Positions 4,812-21,796 of a stretch of DNA of 64,000 bases are shown one piece after another. The stretch spans positions 62,001-126,000 of the forward strand of contig LVAV01000013.1 in NCBI GenBank assembly GCA_001604185.1, given 5' to 3'. The translations under genes were made by a program, and so were the position numbers. The DNA is from Clostridiales bacterium Firm_16 (GTDB lineage: Bacteria; Bacillota; Clostridia; Saccharofermentanales; Saccharofermentanaceae). How positions within the stretch are numbered: position 1 is the stretch's first letter; every line of letters begins with the position of its first letter. The notes under the pieces are model-generated. The model did no database searches, was not told the origin of the DNA, and was given only the letters and a program-made list of their open reading frames with translations.

Positions 4812-6554
4812 TTATCTGTCTGCGGTATAGAATAATCTTCCCATCTGATTCGCGATAAATTCGCCGGTAGTCGCAATATCCTTCGTCAATTCGCTTACCA
4901 GGAATCCAAAGATGTTCTGCTTATGGAAGATCGGGAAAGCCGTGCACTCTCTGCACTTCGGCGGCAGCTCGGTGCGGCGGAACATTTCGCTGGTCCTTCC
5001 GGGCTGGCGCTCCTTCGGAAGCACATACAGCTCTCCCTCTTTCGTCAGACAGTGGAGATAGATCGTATTCGGGAAAAGATCTTCGCTCGTCTCATTGAAA
5101 AGCACCGGCTCGTCGAAAAGGAACAATGCCGCATTGGGAAGACCTAACTTATCGAAATGCGCGATCATGCTGTCGAAAGATACAGAAGAATCTTCCTCGA
5201 AGAAATCGGTAATATCCACCATGTAGTCCGTCATCTTCTGCCGGGTCTCCGTGATATGGTCATTGAAGCGGATGCTGTTCTCCGCCTGGGCCAGGATCGC
5301 GGCGTCACGCATGTGGTTAAACAACCGCTCGATATAGATGTTCATGCCGGTACTCTTCTGGGATCCGTCCACACTGGTCTGCAGACGATCGATACTCTTA
5401 AGCAGTTTTCCCGCATCGGTATACGCCATCGCACCGTTCTCGAAGAAGATATCGATCAATTCTTTTGCCTCGTGATAATCTTCTACGCTCATATATCTCT
5501 GCTTCAAGGCTATCAGGATCTTCGAGATAAAGGCCAGGAACAGTCTCTTCAGATTCACCGACTCACGGCTGATATGCTCATAACGGTAACGGTAGAAACA
5601 GTCATCGAACATTCTGTAGATAAAATCCGTATCCACATTGAGCATTTCCATGACGTTATACTCATACATCTCATACGGGAAAGACTCTCGTCCGTAAAGT
5701 CTTGTGGGGATCAGAGTCGGCTCCACATTCTCGCCGTTCATCATGTCCAGAAGAAGTTCCAGAGACTTCTTTCCCAAAGTGATATTATCGGCACCGATCG
5801 ATGTCAGGGTAGGGATCATGCGGCCGGCCATCTTGGTATTATCGAATCCGAAGACCATGATATCCTTGCCCGGAACCAGTCTTCTCTCCTTCATGGCCTC
5901 ATAAAGACCCACGGCTACGGAGTCATTGACACAGAAGATTGCCTGGACATCCGGATTTCTGTCCAGAAGCTCGTCGGCATCGTCTTTACAGTTAACAGAC
6001 ATATCCGTCGCCTGATACTGGTCTTCCGTAAATTCGATCCCGTTCTCATTCAAGATCCGGGAATAGATATCCTTTCTCCTTCTGGAGTCTACATTATCCG
6101 TTCTTCCGCCCAGCATACAGAATTTCGTAAATCCATTAACGTTGATCAGGCAGTCCAGTGCTTCCCTTATTCCCTCTGTATTGTCGTAATTGACTGTGAC
6201 ACGGTCCTCCACATCAGAGATGGAGAAGATCATGGGAACACCATAGATCTTCGAGTCGAATCTCTCCAGGAGCAGTTCACGGTCCACATTACACATACTT
6301 CCGAGGCATACCAGGATACCGTCAAAATGACACTTGTGCTCCAGTTGATAGACGGAATTATAGATCACACGATACGCGTGATGCTTAACGTCCATATCCT
6401 TAACACCATCGTAGATACCGGCTATCAGTACAAGATTCAAGTCTTTCCTCTGTCGGACACCACTGACAACATTCTGTATGAATTCTTCTGCGAAGTCCGT
6501 GAAGAAATTCTCGATAACCAGACCGATCGTCTTTTTACCATTGCCGCTGATCAT
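4812..6554 (-). CDS. LacI/periplasmic-binding-protein-type sensor protein lacking an obvious HTH
   Basis: N-terminus 'KTIGLVIENFFTDFAEEFIQNVVSGVRQR' and 'NPDVQAIFCVNDSVAVGLYEAMKERRLVPGKDIMVFGFDNTKMAGRMIPTLTSI' typical of the LacI-family sensor fold; no N-terminal HTH. Confidence 0.75.
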   Translation of the reverse strand: MISGNGKKTIGLVIENFFTDFAEEFIQNVVSGVRQRKDLNLVLIAGIYDGVKDMDVKHHAYRVIYNSVYQLEHKCHFDGILVCLGSMCNVDRELLLERFDSKIYGVPMIFSISDVEDRVTVNYDNTEGIREALDCLINVNGFTKFCMLGGRTDNVDSRRRKDIYSRILNENGIEFTEDQYQATDMSVNCKDDADELLDRNPDVQAIFCVNDSVAVGLYEAMKERRLVPGKDIMVFGFDNTKMAGRMIPTLTSIGADNITLGKKSLELLLDMMNGENVEPTLIPTRLYGRESFPYEMYEYNVMEMLNVDTDFIYRMFDDCFYRYRYEHISRESVNLKRLFLAFISKILIALKQRYMSVEDYHEAKELIDIFFENGAMAYTDAGKLLKSIDRLQTSVDGSQKSTGMNIYIERLFNHMRDAAILAQAENSIRFNDHITETRQKMTDYMVDITDFFEEDSSVSFDSMIAHFDKLGLPNAALFLFDEPVLFNETSEDLFPNTIYLHCLTKEGELYVLPKERQPGRTSEMFRRTELPPKCRECTAFPIFHKQNIFGFLVSELTKDIATTGEFIANQMGRLFYTADR

Positions 6555-6572: not shown

Positions 6573-9200
6573 TTACTCCAGAAGATCCGGAGACGGTCTG
6601 GAGAAGAGATAGCCCTGGGAGAAGTCCACTTCGTATCCGACAAGTTTCTCCTGGATCTGCTCATTCTCGACAAACTCGGCAACAATGCCGATCTTTCTAT
6701 CGGAAAGGCGCTTCCACGCCGCGATCAGTGCAATGATATTCTCGGATTCCGGATCGATACAGCAGTTCCGGACAATGGAACCATCGATCTTCAGGAAATC
6801 CGAATAGATACTCAGCAGGTGCTGCAGGTTCGAGAATCCGCTTCCGAAATCGTCGATAGAGATCTTGCCGCCCAGTTCATGGACACGATCTACGAAACCT
6901 ACAAGCTCGTTATAGTCCTCGATATCCTCGTTCTCCAGGATCTCGAACACGAAGTTCTCCGGGTGCGGGACCTGGGACAGGCTGTCATAGATCAATTCCA
7001 GAACTTCCTTGTTCTTGATGTCCCGGATTCCGATATTGATGCTGACACTCTTGTCATCGATATTGCGGAAACGGTCGAAGACTTTACGGATCATGATCTT
7101 CGATATCTCATCGTAAAGCACACCGAAACTTCTGGCGATATCCAGGAAACTGGCTGGATAATACACCTTGCCGTTCTCATCCATAAGACGCATCAGGGAT
7201 TCGTAGTGATGGATCCGCTTCTCTTTGTTATCGTAGATGCCCTGGTAATAAGGGATCACACGGTCATGCATGATGGCATAGTTGATGACATTGACCATGT
7301 GATAGCGCTCACGGATACTGTCATCGTCGATATTGTTCTCATCGGAACCATCACAGACATAGAACTGGATGTTCTTGTTCGTCATGGTAGCAAGTGCGGA
7401 ATAGTAGGTTGTCTCCAAAGTTTCCGTAGTGCATCCGTCGATCACGCAGAAGATCGGAACGATAGAGATGAAGTCCTCAGAATACTGGAAAAGCTGTCTC
7501 TGCAATGCTTCCATGTCTTCTACGAATTGGGAAAGGGACACACGATAAGAAGACTCCGCGATGGCCATCTGCCAGGAATCAAGCATATAGATGTGGTACT
7601 TCTTATCTCGTGCGAAGCTCAGGCACTTGCTGACGAAATTCTTGTGGGTCAGATCGATGAGATAACTGGAGAAGACCCTCTCCATCTCCTTCTGCTGGGA
7701 AACGTTGATGACACAAATCCGGTCATATTCCTTCGTCTTGATGTCCATATTCAGTGCCGCTTCGTTCGGGATATCTTCACTCTCTGAATACAGGATCTTG
7801 TTTTCACAATCACGGATAAATGTAAGCAGACGCTCTGCCTCCTTCGTATCCTCTTTCGAATTGATCAGTTTCTCGGCTTCCACCAGACTGTTCAACAATG
7901 CCGGATTATCCATCTTCAGCATATCCGTATTGGAAAAGGCGTAGGGGTTATACTCCTGAGTATACGGTCTCTCACCCAGTACAGATACGACAAAAGCACC
8001 ATTTCCGAAGGTGTTCCTGCCATTCGAACAGGTGATCTCACCGGCCGTGACACATCCGCACATATTCGAATTCTCATAGGGAGACAGCTCCCACTTAACG
8101 CAATTGGCATAGATCGAAGAGCGGATCAGATTAGAATATCCGAATATCGTCTCAGCCTTCTTGAAGTTCTCCACTCTCTGGAAAAGCGACCGGCTGTCCG
8201 ATACGATCTTGCCATCGTAGATGAATCCGCGCTTGAGCCGGCTTCCCGGTTTCACTACATGGTTGGCACAGAGATATTCCTTCTTGCCGGAAGTGTCCAG
8301 ATCGTCCCGGATCGCATATTCGTGGGAATTCAACGGATCGATCTTCGGAAACAGTTCTTCCAGCGAGCTGTCTTTCTCATAGTTTAGAAGGATCGGGATC
8401 TCATCTGCATCCGCATAGACGTACGGGAACAGATGCTGAAGCTCGGGATGCTTTCTCAGCGCACCGCTCATACCCATCTGGTAAACATCTACCGCATCTT
8501 CCCCGCCGATCTTCAAGATGCAGGAACGGAATGAATCCGTGATCTCCGTCTCTTCCCCGATCGTCTGGATACCTGTAGCATAGGACGTGAACGTCTCGAG
8601 AGATCCGCCGGAGAAAGACGCGATCAGGATGGCCTGATCGGACCACCGCTTCTCATCGAAGACGAATCCCTGTATTGCCCCGGCTTTCTGCCTGGTCTGC
8701 GGTATGGTCGCCACACCACCGGTCATAGGAACACCCGGGAAGAAATCGTTACAGCGGTTAACAAACTGGAAAATATCCTTATATCGTTCCGAAGCGAACA
8801 CCAGGAGAAGTTTCGTCTCATCGTCGAGGATCTCTCTCTTGACCTCTCCGCAGAGCATATCTACCGGCAGGATATTGTCACTATATTCGTCGGTATAGGG
8901 CATCAACCGTACTTTGACTCTGCATTCCTTCATGGCGGAGACGGAGATGGCGCACTGGTTCTGCGCATATTTGCCCCAGTTGATCACGGCAGAGGTGCTG
9001 GTTCCGAAGATCATGGCGTTCGGAACCAGTTCCTTGATAAATCTGGCCAGTTCCACAGCTTCATCCGGGCGATGAATGGCAGTATGAATTCGAATCAGGA
9101 TATCTCCCTGATTCGCAGTAAGATTCAACTGTTTTAATGTATCCGAAAGTCTGGCCTTGGATATATATTGAAAATTCCAAGTAAACATCCGACCCTCCAC
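6573..9200 (-). CDS. FIST N-domain-like plus EAL domain protein (putative c-di-GMP phosphodiesterase)
   Basis: C-terminal EAL signatures: 'YESLMR' (ExLxR), 'SINIGIRD', 'EILENEDI', 'ISIDDFGSGFSNL', 'LKIDGSIV', 'AEFVEN', 'SQGYLF'. N-terminus resembles FIST sensor domains ('VPNAMIFGTSTSAVI'). Confidence 0.85.
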   Translation of the reverse strand: MEGRMFTWNFQYISKARLSDTLKQLNLTANQGDILIRIHTAIHRPDEAVELARFIKELVPNAMIFGTSTSAVINWGKYAQNQCAISVSAMKECRVKVRLMPYTDEYSDNILPVDMLCGEVKREILDDETKLLLVFASERYKDIFQFVNRCNDFFPGVPMTGGVATIPQTRQKAGAIQGFVFDEKRWSDQAILIASFSGGSLETFTSYATGIQTIGEETEITDSFRSCILKIGGEDAVDVYQMGMSGALRKHPELQHLFPYVYADADEIPILLNYEKDSSLEELFPKIDPLNSHEYAIRDDLDTSGKKEYLCANHVVKPGSRLKRGFIYDGKIVSDSRSLFQRVENFKKAETIFGYSNLIRSSIYANCVKWELSPYENSNMCGCVTAGEITCSNGRNTFGNGAFVVSVLGERPYTQEYNPYAFSNTDMLKMDNPALLNSLVEAEKLINSKEDTKEAERLLTFIRDCENKILYSESEDIPNEAALNMDIKTKEYDRICVINVSQQKEMERVFSSYLIDLTHKNFVSKCLSFARDKKYHIYMLDSWQMAIAESSYRVSLSQFVEDMEALQRQLFQYSEDFISIVPIFCVIDGCTTETLETTYYSALATMTNKNIQFYVCDGSDENNIDDDSIRERYHMVNVINYAIMHDRVIPYYQGIYDNKEKRIHHYESLMRLMDENGKVYYPASFLDIARSFGVLYDEISKIMIRKVFDRFRNIDDKSVSINIGIRDIKNKEVLELIYDSLSQVPHPENFVFEILENEDIEDYNELVGFVDRVHELGGKISIDDFGSGFSNLQHLLSIYSDFLKIDGSIVRNCCIDPESENIIALIAAWKRLSDRKIGIVAEFVENEQIQEKLVGYEVDFSQGYLFSRPSPDLLE

Positions 9201-13262: not shown

Positions 13263-14387
13263 ATGAGTACCACTGAGAAAAAATACAAACTGCTGATCAT
13301 CAATCCGGGCTCCACATCCACGAAAGTAAGCCTTTTCGAAGATGAAACTTCGCTCTTCGAGAAGAGCCTGTTCCACGATGCGGACATCCTTCTTTCCTTC
13401 CCTCACGTCAACGACCAGATGCCGTTCCGTTATGAGGTGATCCTGAATATGCTCAAGGATGAAGGCTATGCTCCGGAAGACATCGACGTATTCGTCGGCC
13501 GTGGCGGATCGGCCTGCACGCAGCCCGGTGGTATCACGAAGATCGACCAGAAGCTGTACGACGATACAGTTGCGGCCGTCGGCGGAAGTGAGCATCCGGC
13601 CAAGCTGGGTGTTATGCTGGCCTGGAAGTTCGCCCAGGAATTCAATAAGCCTGCCTTCACTCTTAACCCGACTAACGTGGACGAGTATTGTGACTATGCC
13701 CGTCTGACCGGTATCCGCGGCATCTACCGTGTATCCCATTCCCACGTTCTGAATCAGAAAGCTGTTGCTGAGTATCACGCGGAAAAAGTACTCGGCAAGA
13801 AATATGAAGACTGCAACTTCGTTGTAGCCCACATCGATGGCGGTATCACCGTCAGCGCCCACGATCACGGTAAGATGGTGGACGGAAATATGGGTGCCGA
13901 TGGCGAAGGTGCTTTCACTCCGACCCGTATCGGCAGTGTGCCGGTACTGGCTCTTCTCGACTACATTGAAGAGCACTCGGTTGCCGACGTTCGTCTCCGT
14001 TGCTCCCGTGCCGGTGGTTTCGTTGATCTCTTCGGCACCGCCAATGCCGATACCATCCACGAGATGCTGGAAAAGGGCGACAAGAAAGCCGACCTCGTAT
14101 GGAACACCATGCTTTACCAGATCTGTAAGATGATCGGTGAGATGAGCTGCGTACTCTGCGGTAAGGTAGACGGCATCCTGCTGACCGGCGGACTTCTCCG
14201 TTTTGCCGATGTCAAGGAGACCATCGAGAAGCGCTGCGGATGGATCGCTCCGATCACCCAGTATCCGGGCGAGATGGAGCAGGAGGCTCTGGCTCTTCCG
14301 GCTCTGAAGGTCATGCAGGGCAAGCTCACCGCCCGTACCTACTCCGGCAAGGATGTATGGCAGGGCTTCGAGGGTGTCGAGTTCTGA
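13263..14387 (+). CDS. buk: Butyrate kinase
   Basis: ASKHA acetate/butyrate kinase features: 'LLIINPGSTSTKVSLFEDE', 'VVAHIDGGITVSAHDHGKMVDGNMG', 'GEGAFTPTRIGSVP', 'ILLTGGLLRF'. Confidence 0.9.
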   Translation: MSTTEKKYKLLIINPGSTSTKVSLFEDETSLFEKSLFHDADILLSFPHVNDQMPFRYEVILNMLKDEGYAPEDIDVFVGRGGSACTQPGGITKIDQKLYDDTVAAVGGSEHPAKLGVMLAWKFAQEFNKPAFTLNPTNVDEYCDYARLTGIRGIYRVSHSHVLNQKAVAEYHAEKVLGKKYEDCNFVVAHIDGGITVSAHDHGKMVDGNMGADGEGAFTPTRIGSVPVLALLDYIEEHSVADVRLRCSRAGGFVDLFGTANADTIHEMLEKGDKKADLVWNTMLYQICKMIGEMSCVLCGKVDGILLTGGLLRFADVKETIEKRCGWIAPITQYPGEMEQEALALPALKVMQGKLTARTYSGKDVWQGFEGVEF

Positions 14388-14423
14388 TATAGATAACTAA
14401 AACATGAAAGTGAGGATATTCTT

Positions 14424-15416
14424 ATGAGTTTGATTGAAAAGATCCGTGCCAAGGCACAGGCCAACACCAAGACCATCGTACTTCCGGAAGGCGACGAGCC
14501 GCGTACCGTCAAGGCGGCGGAACTGATCCGCAAGGATAACCTTGCCCGCCCGGTACTCATCGGTGACCCGGCCAAAGTAGCCCAGGTCGCAGCCGAGCAG
14601 GGTGCAGATATCGAAGGGATCGAGATCATCGATCCTTGTAACAGTGTGAAATACGACAGCTACGTACAAGCGCTTTTCGAACTGAGAAAGGCCAAGGGCG
14701 TAACGGAGGAAGATGCTAAGAAGCTGGTTTCGGATCCGATGTATTTCGGCATCATGATGGTCAAGCTCGGAGATGCTGACGGTCTGGTATCCGGTGCAGT
14801 ACATACCACCGGTGACATGCTCCGTCCGGCACTGCAGATCATCAAGGCGAAGCCGGGTATGTCCATCGTATCCAGCAGCTTCCTGATGGAGTGCCCGAAT
14901 AAAGAGTTAGGTGAAGACGGACTTCTGGTCTATGCCGACTGTGTCGTGAATCCTTGCCCGAATGCCCAGGAACTGGCACAGATCGCGGTTTCTGCCGCGG
15001 AGACAGCCAAAGTCCTCTGCGGGATCGAAGAGCCGAGAGTAGCTCTCCTTTCCTTCTCAACTAAGGGCAGCGCCAAGCACGATCTGGTCACCAAAGTCCA
15101 GGAAGCAACCGCTCTGGCTCATGAACTGGCTCCGGATCTGCTGCTGGATGGTGAGATGCAGTTCGATGCCGCTCTGGTTCCGGAGATCGGCGCATCCAAG
15201 GCTCCGGGCAGCAAAGTGGCCGGCCGTGCCAACGTCCTGATCTTCCCGGATCTGCAGGCAGGTAATATCGGCTATAAGATCACCCAGCGTATCGGTGGTG
15301 CAGATTGCTTTGCTGTACTTCAGGGTCTGGCTAAGCCGTGCAACGACCTGTCCCGTGGCTGCTCCGTTGAGGATATCGTCAACACCGTCGCCATGACTGC
15401 CGTACAGGCACAGTGA
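14424..15416 (+). CDS. pta: Phosphate acetyltransferase
   Basis: 'KTIVLPEGDEPRTVKAAELI', 'DADGLVSGAVHTTGDMLRPALQIIKAKPG', 'VLIFPDLQAGNIGYKITQRIGGA' typical of Pta. Confidence 0.9.
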   Translation: MSLIEKIRAKAQANTKTIVLPEGDEPRTVKAAELIRKDNLARPVLIGDPAKVAQVAAEQGADIEGIEIIDPCNSVKYDSYVQALFELRKAKGVTEEDAKKLVSDPMYFGIMMVKLGDADGLVSGAVHTTGDMLRPALQIIKAKPGMSIVSSSFLMECPNKELGEDGLLVYADCVVNPCPNAQELAQIAVSAAETAKVLCGIEEPRVALLSFSTKGSAKHDLVTKVQEATALAHELAPDLLLDGEMQFDAALVPEIGASKAPGSKVAGRANVLIFPDLQAGNIGYKITQRIGGADCFAVLQGLAKPCNDLSRGCSVEDIVNTVAMTAVQAQ

Positions 15417-16023: not shown

Positions 16024-17394
16024 TCAGTCCCGACCGGACTTTCTGTCCCGCAGCTGGCATGTCTGGTCCATCCTGGCGGATACGTCACGGATCTTCTTGC
16101 AGCGCTCGCTTTCCCAGATCTGCTTCCACTTATCCTGCAGGATGTTGCCCAATACATCTTCCGAAAGCCAGCTCTGACAGGGCACCACATTTCCGGACGG
16201 CGTGATAGCCATGTTACTTAAGCAGGCACCGCAGGACGGAACATCCAGTCCCATTTCCCGCAGTTTCTCTTCTGAGATCCAGCCCGGAGAGGTAAAGTTG
16301 ATCTCCATCTTATTGGCATATACGAACTCTGTGGCATCCTTAAGCAACTGGTACAGTTCTTCTGCCGAGAGGATCGTACTCTGAGAAGGCGCTTCCTTCG
16401 CATTACCCGTCTGGATCAGACCGGAACAGGTAACATAGCGGACACCCAGATCCTTCAGGAAGGCAAGAGTCTTTCTGTAGTCCCGGTTGAGGGTGCACAG
16501 CGGCGTGTTGATGCTGAGATTCAATCCCGCAGCCAGGGCATTACGGATCCCGTCCACGGTTTTCTCATAGTTCGGCGCGCCCACCAGTTCGTTATGGATA
16601 GCCGGGTCGTCTGAATAGAACGTGACCTGCACGCTGTCCAGGTCAGCGTCTTTCAAAGCCTTACAGTATTCCGGTGTCAGTCTGGCACCGTTGGTATTCA
16701 GTCTTGTCACGAACCATCTGGCATTTCGGATCAGTTCAGGCAGGTCATCCCGCATGGTCGGTTCGCCACCGGTGAACGTCACCTGGGAGATCTTCTCCTT
16801 GCGGAGGATCGACAGGACCTTCAGCCAGTCTTCCGTGGACAACTCTGCTTCCTCGGCATGTTCCTGTTCGGCCGCGTAGCAGTGGATGCACTTCTGGTTA
16901 CAGTTCCATCTGCCGTCCTTCTTCATGGCGGAGACCATCAGGTCCATACGATGGGGTGCACTCATGAAAGCAGCATATTCGCCCAGCGTGATGGGTTTTC
17001 TGGAGGACTGGATCTCCCGTCCTTCCACTACATCTTCGAAGATCCCGATCATGCAGTCCAGATCTTCCAGAAGCGTCTTCACGCTCGCACGAGGAAAGAC
17101 CTTCCTGACGTTGTCGATGGTCTTCTCGATGATGCCGTCCAGCTCTTCTTCCGTCATGGGTCCGTCGCCGAACTCATTGACACTCTTGATGTATTCCGAA
17201 AGCAGGATCGCCCAGGATTCGTTGATCGGCAGGATGTCCTGGCCATTTAAGATGACCAGGGAATCCGCCGTACGGAAACGCATATATTTCGGTGGGACCA
17301 GATGGATACGGATCACACCCGGGCCGTCCGGGTTCCAGGTCGTGTGGAGGATCGTGTTCCAGTTTTCCCGTTCATAACGCTTGACTCGACTCAT
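16024..17394 (-). CDS. Radical SAM / SPASM-like protein, paired with the Cys-Ala-repeat membrane protein
   Basis: 'WNCNQKCIHCYA' (CxxxCxxC), 'VTFTGGEPTMR', C-terminal 'SCGACLSNMAITPSGNVVPCQSW'. ATG at 17394 overlaps the upstream gene's TGA (ATGA). Confidence 0.9.
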   Translation of the reverse strand: MSRVKRYERENWNTILHTTWNPDGPGVIRIHLVPPKYMRFRTADSLVILNGQDILPINESWAILLSEYIKSVNEFGDGPMTEEELDGIIEKTIDNVRKVFPRASVKTLLEDLDCMIGIFEDVVEGREIQSSRKPITLGEYAAFMSAPHRMDLMVSAMKKDGRWNCNQKCIHCYAAEQEHAEEAELSTEDWLKVLSILRKEKISQVTFTGGEPTMRDDLPELIRNARWFVTRLNTNGARLTPEYCKALKDADLDSVQVTFYSDDPAIHNELVGAPNYEKTVDGIRNALAAGLNLSINTPLCTLNRDYRKTLAFLKDLGVRYVTCSGLIQTGNAKEAPSQSTILSAEELYQLLKDATEFVYANKMEINFTSPGWISEEKLREMGLDVPSCGACLSNMAITPSGNVVPCQSWLSEDVLGNILQDKWKQIWESERCKKIRDVSARMDQTCQLRDRKSGRD

Positions 17395-18524
17395 ATTTTC
17401 TTCTCCTCGCTTCCTGATGTTTGTGCTTCTTGCAAAGCCTCGGCACGGGCTCTCAGACGGGCACGTACACGTGCACTGTCCACCTTCGTTCCGTAGAAGT
17501 CCTTCTTGCTGCAGCCGGCACGGCCGCCTCCGGCACAGGCACACGCACAAGCGCAGGCACATGCACATCCACCGCCACCTCCATGACCACCATGGCCGCC
17601 ACCGAGGAATCTGTGGATCCCTCTGTTGGAAACATAGCCGTCGCTTCTGTACTTACTTCCGGAGAACCAGAGAATCGAAATGTAAACAATGACGAAAGTG
17701 AGGAAAGCGAATGCGATAAGGAGTGTGGCCCAGTCGAACCCGGTCTGGTTGATCTCGGAATAGGTGTAGTTGTATGCAGTCGGGAGATAGTAGATCTCCA
17801 TGTCGATCTTCTGATCCTTCGCCAGGGAACCTTCCCAGACCAGATAACCGTTCTTCACATTAGGCGTATTGGCATATACAACTTTGTCCGTATTCCAGAG
17901 GAAGCAGTAGTGATCGACTTCGATCTCCGGGAACCAGCCCGGAATAAACCAGTACTGATACAGTTCCTTCGGAACCTCCGAAGTTCCGATATAGGCCTTC
18001 GCGTTCCCGTTGTCTTTTGCCATCTGGATATTCTCCTTGGTCTGAAGATCATAGGGTACATGGTTCTCGCCATCCGTGGGCGCGGTAAACATATTGTGCT
18101 GCACAAGGGAGAAGGTAAACTGGACAATCTCATTCTTGTAGTACTTCTTCTTGAAATCAATGCGGACATAGCATCCGCCTTCACCGTAGTACTTCGCTTT
18201 CTTGATGTTGTTGCTCAGTGCACGGATCTCATCGACCTGTGTATTTCCCACGCCGATCTTTACCCAGGAAAGCGGTCCCTCTGTCTTACTGTCCAGGACC
18301 TTCCACTTAATGTCGTAGACCATCTGCATGGAACCGTCATCCAGCATATCTACCGTGATCCGATAATCCAGGATCTCATCCAATGTCTTAGTAGATGCGG
18401 CCTGCACTTTCTTCACGCCCAGAGCGGGGCTCCAGGAGCCGGTCGCAAGGACGACCATAACGATCGCCGCAAGCAGGCAAAGGATTCTTCTTAATGTGTT
18501 CATTGACTTCATGTTCGTTCTCAT
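17391..18524 (-). CDS. Secreted/membrane protein with C-terminal Gly-His-rich, (Cys-Ala)6 tail
   Basis: Signal peptide, extracellular domain, TM segment 'WATLLIAFAFLTFVIVYISILWF', then 'GGGHGGHGGGGGCACACACACACAGGGRAGCSKKDFYGTK'. Confidence 0.85.
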   Translation of the reverse strand: MRTNMKSMNTLRRILCLLAAIVMVVLATGSWSPALGVKKVQAASTKTLDEILDYRITVDMLDDGSMQMVYDIKWKVLDSKTEGPLSWVKIGVGNTQVDEIRALSNNIKKAKYYGEGGCYVRIDFKKKYYKNEIVQFTFSLVQHNMFTAPTDGENHVPYDLQTKENIQMAKDNGNAKAYIGTSEVPKELYQYWFIPGWFPEIEVDHYCFLWNTDKVVYANTPNVKNGYLVWEGSLAKDQKIDMEIYYLPTAYNYTYSEINQTGFDWATLLIAFAFLTFVIVYISILWFSGSKYRSDGYVSNRGIHRFLGGGHGGHGGGGGCACACACACACAGGGRAGCSKKDFYGTKVDSARVRARLRARAEALQEAQTSGSEEKKI

Positions 18525-19655: not shown

Positions 19656-20411
19656 ATGAATACGAAGATCAAGCAGATCCTGAAAGCCGTAGAGAACGGT
19701 GAGATGACATCCGAAGAAGCGTTGCTGAAGATCAAGGCGGCGCCTTTCGACGATATTGGTTTTGCGAAAGTGGACAATCACCGAGGCATCCTGCAGGGTG
19801 TGCCGGAAGTGATCTATGGTGCGGGCAAGACACCGGATCAGATCATCGGTATCATGGATTCCATGCGCAGAAACGATCAGAACCAGATCCTGATCACGAG
19901 ACTTTCCGCAGAAGCCGCGCAGGAAGTCGGCCGCGCACATGACATCACCTACCATAAGGACGCCAGGATCGGGACCTACGGTTCTTTTCCCACGGCAGAC
20001 GGAATCGGTAAGATCGTAGTGGCTACCGGCGGCACCAGTGATATTCCTGTTGCGGAAGAAGCAGCAATTACGGCCGAGTTCTTCGGTAACGAAGTGGTGC
20101 GTCTTTACGACGTAGGTGTGGCCGGTCTGCACCGGCTTCTGAGCCATCAGGAAGAGATCATGTCGGCCAGCGTCATTATCGCCATTGCCGGTATGGAGGG
20201 CGCCCTGGCCAGTGTCATCGGCGGTCTGGCTGACTGTCCTGTGATCGCCGTTCCCACCAGCGTCGGTTATGGCGCTGCTTTCGAAGGGCTCTCTGCTCTT
20301 CTCTCTATGCTCAATTCTTGTGCCAGCGGTGTCTCTGTCGTCAACATCGACAACGGATTCGGTGCCGGTTATCTGGCCAGCATGATCAACCATATGGAGG
20401 CGAAAAAATGA
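19656..20411 (+). CDS. larB: Nickel pincer cofactor biosynthesis protein LarB
   Basis: AIR-carboxylase-like C-terminus 'VIIAIAGMEGALASVIGGLADCPVIAVPTSVGYGAAFEGLSALLSMLNSCASGVSVVNIDNGFGAG'; overlaps larC by ATGA. Confidence 0.93.
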   Translation: MNTKIKQILKAVENGEMTSEEALLKIKAAPFDDIGFAKVDNHRGILQGVPEVIYGAGKTPDQIIGIMDSMRRNDQNQILITRLSAEAAQEVGRAHDITYHKDARIGTYGSFPTADGIGKIVVATGGTSDIPVAEEAAITAEFFGNEVVRLYDVGVAGLHRLLSHQEEIMSASVIIAIAGMEGALASVIGGLADCPVIAVPTSVGYGAAFEGLSALLSMLNSCASGVSVVNIDNGFGAGYLASMINHMEAKK

Positions 20412-21796
20412 AGACTCTCTATCTCGATTGTTCTATGGGTGCTGCCGGCGATATGCTTTCCGCCGCGCTTCTTGAGCTTGTTCCGGACCAGGAGAAATTC
20501 CTCGCGAGACTGCAGTCCCGAGGCATCCCGGGTGTGACCTTCCAGCCGGAGAAATCCGTCAAATGCGGGATCACCGGAACCCATATGACTGTCCTCATCG
20601 ATGGTGAGGAAGAAGACGAGCATATGCATGATCACTGCCACTGCCACGAGCATCATCATGACCATGAACATGACCATGAGCATGAACATCATCATGACCA
20701 CGACCATGAACACGAACATCACGACCATGAACACGACCACGATCATGGCCATCACCATCACACGAGTCTTCACGATATCGAGCATATCGTGTATGACCAT
20801 CTGAAGCTGCCGACAGAAGTAGCACTGAATGTGATGGCGGTCTATCACGAGATCGCGGAAGCGGAAAGCCATGCCCATGGAAAGCCTGTGGACCAGATCC
20901 ACTTCCACGAAGTAGGTACCATGGATGCGGTAGCGGATATTGTCGCCGTATGTCTTCTCATGTACACATTAAAACCCGACGAAGTCGTGGTGTCGCCGAT
21001 CCATGTTGGTTCCGGACAAGTGAAATGTGCCCACGGCATCCTTCCGGTGCCGGCTCCGGCCACCGCCTTTATCCTTCGGGATGTACCTACCTACGGCGGA
21101 TCGATCCAGGGAGAACTCTGCACCCCCACCGGTGCGGCCCTGCTGAAACATTTTGCAACCAGATTCGGCCCTCAGCCCCTGATGCGCACCTCTGCCATCG
21201 GATATGGCATGGGCAAGAAAGATTTCCCTCAGGCCAACTGCGTACGCGCTTTGCTGGGTGAATCCGTAGAAATACCTGCCACGCAGACCACATCCTCCGG
21301 CACGGCCGCGTGTGATTCCGTAAATGCAGTATGCACGTCTGCCTCTCAATCGGGTACAGGTATCACCACCTGCTCGGTAGTGGAGCTCTCCTGCAACGTA
21401 GACGATATGACCGGAGAAGCCATCGGTTTTGCTATGGAGAGGCTGTTCGAAGCCGGCGCAAGAGAGGTCTATACCGTTCCCTGCGGCATGAAGAAATCCC
21501 GTCCCGGCACCCTTATTACGGTGCTCTGCATGGACAAGGACAAAGAAAAAATGGTGCAAGTTCTTTTCGAAAATACGACGACCATCGGTGTGCGGGAAGC
21601 ACTATTCAACCGGTATGTACTGGATCGAAAGACCGAGACCCTGGAGACTTCCATGGGTCCTGTCAGAAAGAAGATCTCTACCGGGTATGGTGTGACCCGG
21701 ATGAAGTATGAGTACGAAGACCTGGCACGCATTGCCAGAGAGCAGGGTATCACGCTTTCCGAGGCACTTCTGAAAGTGCATATGGAGGAGCACTGA
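20408..21796 (+). CDS. larC: Nickel pincer cofactor biosynthesis protein LarC with His-rich insert
   Basis: 'MKTLYLDCSMGAAGDMLSAALLELV', 'HFHEVGTMDAVADIVAV', 'CTPTGAALLKHFA', 'ELSCNVDDMTGEAIGFAMERLFEAGAREVY'. Confidence 0.93.
   Translation: MKTLYLDCSMGAAGDMLSAALLELVPDQEKFLARLQSRGIPGVTFQPEKSVKCGITGTHMTVLIDGEEEDEHMHDHCHCHEHHHDHEHDHEHEHHHDHDHEHEHHDHEHDHDHGHHHHTSLHDIEHIVYDHLKLPTEVALNVMAVYHEIAEAESHAHGKPVDQIHFHEVGTMDAVADIVAVCLLMYTLKPDEVVVSPIHVGSGQVKCAHGILPVPAPATAFILRDVPTYGGSIQGELCTPTGAALLKHFATRFGPQPLMRTSAIGYGMGKKDFPQANCVRALLGESVEIPATQTTSSGTAACDSVNAVCTSASQSGTGITTCSVVELSCNVDDMTGEAIGFAMERLFEAGAREVYTVPCGMKKSRPGTLITVLCMDKDKEKMVQVLFENTTTIGVREALFNRYVLDRKTETLETSMGPVRKKISTGYGVTRMKYEYEDLARIAREQGITLSEALLKVHMEEH

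Follow-up and report, generated by a model that had tools for sequence, protein, structure and literature searches.

A recurrent two-gene cassette pairing a radical SAM/SPASM-Twitch enzyme with a membrane protein that carries a Cys-Ala tail: a candidate protein maturation system

Two overlapping minus-strand genes were analysed in a 64,000-nucleotide stretch of contig LVAV01000013.1 from Clostridiales bacterium Firm_16, referred to here as the window. One encodes a 377-aa membrane protein whose predicted cytoplasmic tail end is (Cys-Ala)6-GGGRAGCSKKDFY, and the other a 456-aa radical SAM/SPASM-Twitch enzyme. The two genes probably form a dedicated post-translational maturation cassette, in which the enzyme would modify the Cys-Ala tail by radical chemistry, the likeliest products being thioethers between Cys sulfur and Ala C-alpha. 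The pair occurs in Bacillota, Actinomycetota, Krumholzibacteriia and Aminicenantes, at least four phyla as labelled in the records, and it belongs to none of the named maturase families that were searched.

The membrane protein and its tail

The candidate substrate is encoded at 18524-17391 (minus strand), as read from the open reading frame and its translation and from comparison with homologues. It begins with a signal peptide or N-terminal hydrophobic segment (residues 1-43, 18396..18524; hydrophobic at 14-32, with an AF2 helix at 7-31), followed by a predicted extracytoplasmic, beta-rich and fast-evolving ectodomain (residues 44-262, 17739..18395) and a single transmembrane helix (residues 265-287, 17664..17732; hydropathy in 34 sequences, AF2 helix 265-291). 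Beyond the membrane lie a Gly/His-rich spacer that is variable in homologues (residues 308-319, 17568..17603), the (Cys-Ala)6 array, which is the candidate modification site (residues 320-331, 17532..17567), the GGGRAGCSKKDFY motif, near-invariant in homologues (residues 332-344, 17493..17531), and a basic helix in the AF2 model (residues 350-369, 17418..17477), a possible recognition follower. The complete C-terminal tail reads GGGHGGHGGGGG-CACACACACACA-GGGRAGCSKKDFYGTK.

By hydropathy, 33 of 34 sequences have a single hydrophobic segment at the N-terminus and a single transmembrane segment ahead of the tail, and in the remaining one the second segment was called twice, with overlapping calls. 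Because of this arrangement the tail is predicted to be cytoplasmic, on the same side as the enzyme, in agreement with the sequence-only reading. Between the membrane and the tail the homologues may carry a zinc ribbon or a Ser/Gly-rich spacer, and zinc-ribbon-like stretches are common in this position among the Lachnospiraceae members, many of which have one.

The AF2 model of the ectodomain has a pLDDT above 90 over most of residues 51-140 and 201-250. Its Foldseek matches are the ectodomain of ribophorin I/Ost1 and the beta domains of M1 aminopeptidases, with low TM-scores (~0.35 or less). No Pfam family reaches its cut-off in the 377-aa protein, and 17 of the 34 tail-protein sequences match DUF2207 weakly (best E 1.1e-4). 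The tail protein resembles the DUF2207 membrane proteins (PF09972) in that a beta-rich N-terminal domain, predicted to be exported, precedes a membrane segment, but differs from them in falling below the gathering score (13.1 bits versus 24.4), in its Cys-Ala tail and in having a dedicated enzyme. Pfam and NCBIfam hold no curated family name for it, and the enzyme is found in Pfam, NCBIfam and the PDB (by sequence) under generic radical SAM/SPASM headings only.

No other part of the protein is as well conserved as the tail, despite the scrambling of its codons. Mean entropy across 34 divergent sequences is 0.42 bits in the tail, compared with 2.09 in the ectodomain and 2.74 in the transmembrane segment, with the reservation that tail conservation is inflated for the loci L026-L088, which were found through a tail pattern. 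Within G317-R352 alone, 23 positions are invariant among ten family members, far more than chance would give, and the tail is likewise invariant, or close to it, across at least four phyla by record title. Relatives from the same genus or family are only 39-53% identical to the tail protein of the window yet retain (CA)4-7-GGGRAGCSxKD[FL]YG[TA]K. The motif after the array, of which GRVGCSERGYQ and GGGGAGCSRK are variants, is conserved about as well as the array itself. In L083, L087 and L119-L124 (Krumholzibacteriia and Aminicenantes) the array is CACACVSCACACACAGGGGAGCSRK and is followed by a CPxC motif.

Among 549 array Cys in 81 arrays, 530 are followed by Ala and the others by Val (15), Phe (2) or Gly (2). 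The residue ahead of the array Cys varies (Ala, Ser or Gly), and successive Cys are separated by 1, 2, 3 or 4 residues. The search pattern may have favoured Cys-Ala-Cys steps; at all other steps, too, Cys is followed mostly by Ala and sometimes by Val. Since Ala is held while the spacing varies, the selected unit is Cys-Ala and not a fixed Cys-Cys distance, a constraint that would point to chemistry inside the dipeptide more than to a metal cluster. One paralogue in L024 (7774-8709), with the array CACACAYACACA, has a single Cys replaced by Tyr, the sole replacement noticed at a Cys position, and provides a natural variant with respect to tolerance.

The mixed codons of the array had been taken earlier as a sign of selection on the protein, and the homologues bear this out. 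One identical array peptide occurs in 14 copies, encoded by 14 different DNA sequences with a mean identity of 78%, so that selection acts on the protein. DNA slippage was rejected as the origin of the repeat on the same grounds (14/14).

The radical SAM enzyme

The enzyme gene (17394-16024, minus strand) encodes the candidate tail maturase, as judged from Pfam and homologues. An in-frame ATG upstream, at 17568, would give an ORF of 514 aa; the homologue alignments begin at 17394. Both Radical_SAM (PF04055, 3.8e-23) and SPASM (PF13186, 1.3e-9) score above their cut-offs. The radical SAM core (residues 161-330, 16405..16914) has the CX3CX2C motif of radical SAM enzymes, with C165, C169 and C172 present in all 36 enzyme homologues.

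The C-terminal Twitch/SPASM domain (residues 386-446, 16057..16239) contains three Cys that are invariant among the same 36 homologues, C388, C406 and C446, together with C391 (29/36) and C432 (32/36). Going by position, these residues would supply the auxiliary cluster I ligand set of a Twitch domain. The label "SPASM-like", given to the enzyme in the sequence-only reading, agrees with the Pfam match but needs refining: the clostridial enzymes have Twitch-type ligands only, and the second-cluster motif of a full SPASM domain (CX2CX5CX3C) is absent from the window enzyme, which keeps only its last Cys (C446). The homologue from Krumholzibacteriia (L087), in contrast, has the complete second-cluster Cys motif. 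This is the one full-length enzyme of the Krumholzibacteriia/Aminicenantes type that was read, and its complete SPASM motif is perhaps the ancestral form.

The AF2 model of the enzyme (pLDDT 91.5) has an N-terminal domain (residues 1-125, 17020..17394) of strands followed by three helices, an RRE-like topology comparable with the RRE of SkfB, and this domain is a candidate for substrate binding. It gave no PqqD/RRE match in Pfam or in a profile search against the PDB, and that the RRE assignment draws on predicted topology only is a point against the maturase reading.

Among solved structures the sactisynthase SkfB comes closest, both by profile (1.1e-24) and by fold (1.7e-15), with CteB and SuiB next by fold; the fold matches to SkfB and SuiB are near full-length. 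By sequence, the similarity to SkfB spans the core and the Twitch domain, regions in which PqqE, NirJ and MoaA also resemble the enzyme. The window enzyme is far below the cut-off of every NCBIfam maturase model (best 98.6 bits versus 500), and the L034 and L087 enzymes are likewise below these cut-offs, placing them outside the SCIFF/ranthipeptide and other named maturase equivalogs. The reaction is therefore not predictable from family membership. The best NCBIfam scores of the enzyme are to NirJ2, WgkB, PqqE and MoaA, each under its cut-off.

Gene order and neighbourhood

The two genes of the window are joined by an ATGA start/stop overlap (17391..17394, minus strand). Coordinates, overlap, tail sequence, the mixed array codons, the CX3CX2C motif and the Cys-rich C-terminal domain were all re-read from the sequence and are as first described. 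Tail and enzyme genes adjoin in nearly all loci, and in 44 of 46 measured pairs they overlap or lie within 4 bases of each other. This holds in both gene orders, tail-first in 10 pairs (the lineage of the window) and enzyme-first in 36, and the adjacency has therefore outlived a switch in gene order. Pairs of loci that differ more in the one protein also tend to differ more in the other (Spearman 0.70, Mantel 0.001, 32 loci). Two or three tail genes accompany a single enzyme in L022, L024, L031, L037, L045 and L047, as expected for an enzyme and its substrates. In L022 a third, truncated tail-protein paralogue (5926-6231) lies upstream of two full copies.

A search for a third conserved gene around the cassette loci found no shared family, and a larger biosynthetic cluster was rejected on this basis. 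A defence function was likewise rejected, as PADLOC returned generic viperin similarity confined to the radical SAM core, and plasmid carriage was discounted with no plasmid match. On the plus strand of the window, 19656-21796 is a single uninterrupted frame in which what we take to be a LarB-like gene runs on into a LarC-like nickel insertase, with an insertion of about 45 His/Asp/Glu-rich residues. Also on the plus strand, 13263-15416 presumably encodes a butyrate kinase-like and phosphate acetyl/butyryltransferase-like pair; L018 and L021, too, have a kinase-like homologue close to the cassette.

Distribution and co-occurrence

The suggestion, made with the first description, that the tail motif recurs in other Clostridia is strongly confirmed. 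Scanning genome contigs with the tail pattern gave 63 loci, mostly from MAGs of Lachnospiraceae and other Clostridia, with further loci in Eggerthellaceae (Actinomycetota), in records labelled Bacilli and Acholeplasmatales, and in Krumholzibacteriia and Aminicenantes. An enzyme homologue adjoins the tail gene in 60 of the 63. The L082 and L086 loci start within the tail gene, at a contig end, and the same MAGs carry the enzyme, whole or in part, on another contig. In the L041 genome no enzyme was found, and the N-terminus of its tail gene (7800-8816) has been lost to stop codons; this gene is likely a remnant after enzyme loss.

The co-occurrence of the two genes was followed in four sets of whole genomes, the first three of them independent samples, in which the enzyme searches made no use of the tail and are free of tail-pattern bias. 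Of 98 genomes related to that of the window, the same 9 have the tail protein and the enzyme, with none having one alone. The tail DNA pattern and the enzyme likewise coincide in the same 15 of 145 relatives of a Lachnospiraceae carrier, and the tail pattern and enzyme in the same 8 of 121 relatives of an Eggerthellaceae carrier, again with no genome holding one alone. The fourth set sampled 341 genomes across the class. The enzyme is present in 8 of them, and the tail pattern matches only 5 genomes, all among these 8. The other three enzyme genomes also hold a partner, giving 8 of 8: L096 has the variant tail GGGRVGCSERGYQ; in L104 (4660-7592) the tail gene is split by a transposase-like insertion sequence and its motif is now VGGRVGCS, while the enzyme is intact; and in L103 the partner copy ends at the contig end, ahead of the tail. 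With the seed genome removed, the probability of such agreement by chance is 7e-12 for the set of 98 and 1e-19 for the set of 145, figures that assume independence, whereas related genomes are not strictly independent. These sets reject the view that the genes are chance neighbours. The proposal that the enzyme modifies the tail had been coupled to a test set in advance, namely whether tail and enzyme regularly occur apart, and with 9/98, 15/145, 8/121 and 8/8 genomes shared the answer was negative, which supports the proposal.

Proposed function and competing explanations

The tail is very probably the substrate of the radical SAM enzyme. We propose that the ectodomain is exported and the protein anchored by its one transmembrane helix, with the Cys-Ala tail staying behind in the cytoplasm, where the enzyme would bind it, probably through the RRE-like N-terminal domain and the conserved region formed by GGGRAGCSxKDFY and the basic helix. 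The [4Fe-4S] cluster held by C165, C169 and C172 would cleave SAM to give a 5'-deoxyadenosyl radical. In the most likely reaction, a hydrogen would be abstracted from the Ala C-alpha, which would then be captured by the sulfur of the preceding Cys on the three-Cys auxiliary cluster. The product would be a series of Cys-S to Ala-C-alpha thioethers, six-membered thiomorpholinone rings formed with the loss of 2 H each. The direction from Cys to the next Ala is suggested by the conservation of Ala after Cys. A Cys-derived thioether of some kind is the probable outcome, and an S-C-alpha bond to the adjacent Ala specifically is put forward tentatively.

The sequence of docking, radical formation and joining of Cys sulfur to Ala is modelled on characterised enzymes. 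In CteB a substrate Cys binds an open site of the auxiliary cluster (PMC6231123), and by analogy the three invariant Twitch Cys would leave such a site open for a substrate thiol. Sactionine bonds with Ala as the acceptor are known from Trn-beta and RumC1 (PMC8172795), and the six-membered Cys thiomorpholine of enteropeptin is a precedent for the ring size (PMC12395415). The synthesis route of enteropeptin, through a Cys methyl ester, suggests that its acceptor precedes the Cys, opposite to the direction favoured here (PMC12395415). Enteropeptin differs in this probably reversed acceptor order; it is moreover a secreted peptide that carries just one ring, together with N-methylornithine.

The enzyme may instead act on the tail by a reaction that forms no thioether, such as epimerisation, desulfurisation or oxidation of Cys, methylation, or C-C or C-N cross-linking at Cys/Ala or within GGGRAGCSxKDFY. 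SPASM/Twitch enzymes catalyse many reactions, the highest-scoring NCBIfam models, all below cut-off, include NirJ2, WgkB, PqqE and MoaA, and the conservation of the post-array motif approaches that of the array. We nevertheless consider such a reaction unlikely, given that the repeat unit is Cys-Ala with a single Cys replacement noticed, and that SkfB, the nearest solved enzyme in both sequence and fold, forms Cys thioethers.

Cys-x-Cys motifs are common as metal ligands and some tails add CPxC, points that count against thioether formation and towards a metal- or Fe-S-binding, metallothionein-like array, which the enzyme would assemble or load, or from which it would draw electrons or sulfur, with no covalent change to Cys-Ala. 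The CxC and CxxxC motifs, the His-rich spacer, the zinc ribbons beside the tail in some homologues and the CPxC that follows it in Krumholzibacteriia and Aminicenantes all fit such an array. A ligand set, however, would be expected to hold its spacing and free the intervening residue, and the tails do the reverse, with Cys-Cys gaps of 1 to 4 residues and a non-ligand residue that is Ala in 530/549; nor would such an array explain why the tail depends strictly on a radical SAM enzyme. A metal site, which the sequence-only reading had offered as its own alternative, is less favoured on this comparison of spacing and Ala, and we regard it as quite improbable.

That the two proteins merely share an operon or pathway, the enzyme acting on another molecule and the tail serving as its docking or sorting signal or membrane anchor, is very improbable: the substrate is identified by inference and the enzyme does have a separate N-terminal domain, but there is no third conserved gene, an enzyme accompanied by two or three tail proteins is consistent with several substrates, and a docking signal has no need of a long Cys-Ala repeat.

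Relation to known systems

The nearest comparisons are the sactisynthases SkfB, AlbA and RumMC and the SCIFF maturase CteB, which likewise combine radical SAM and Twitch/SPASM domains with a Cys-rich partner encoded alongside, and with an N-terminal domain whose RRE-like topology is here a predicted one. The partner here differs in being a single-pass membrane protein of 300-500 aa and not a short leader-core peptide, and the cassette has no conserved protease or exporter gene and matches no NCBIfam maturase model. The cassette works like a radical SAM peptide maturase, yet it lacks the short precursor peptide and the protease and exporter genes of sactisynthase systems. The maturase QhpD of the quinohemoprotein amine dehydrogenase gamma subunit is alike in being a radical SAM enzyme of the same operon that installs several Cys thioethers in a protein, not a secreted peptide, and its action on QhpC is a precedent for modification of a protein substrate by an operon-partner enzyme (PMC7876137). 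QhpC differs from the tail protein: this small subunit carries a leader, its acceptors are Asp/Glu and no membrane anchor is described for it (PMC7876137), whereas the Cys-Ala array has no Asp/Glu pattern. The library of papers searched, as distinct from subscription papers, preprints and supplements, yielded no description of the motif or of the pair; one string match, to a paper on lamb colon, was judged incidental from title and abstract.

Implications

The cassette is recurrent in gut and rumen anaerobes, and it would widen radical SAM maturation beyond short secreted peptides, to a conserved membrane protein modified on its cytoplasmic tail. As a substrate, its repeat of up to nine Cys units would allow iterative radical chemistry to be tested cleanly. 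A more speculative and rather doubtful possibility is that each Cys is stapled to the next Ala along the whole array, giving a polymer of consecutive thiomorpholinone rings, a rigid, thiol-free rod on the inner face of the membrane protein. If true, this would be a protein structure previously undescribed, to our knowledge. Should thioethers form between neighbouring residues, they would constitute a new protein backbone element. The cassette would also provide a handle on the function of a DUF2207-like family.
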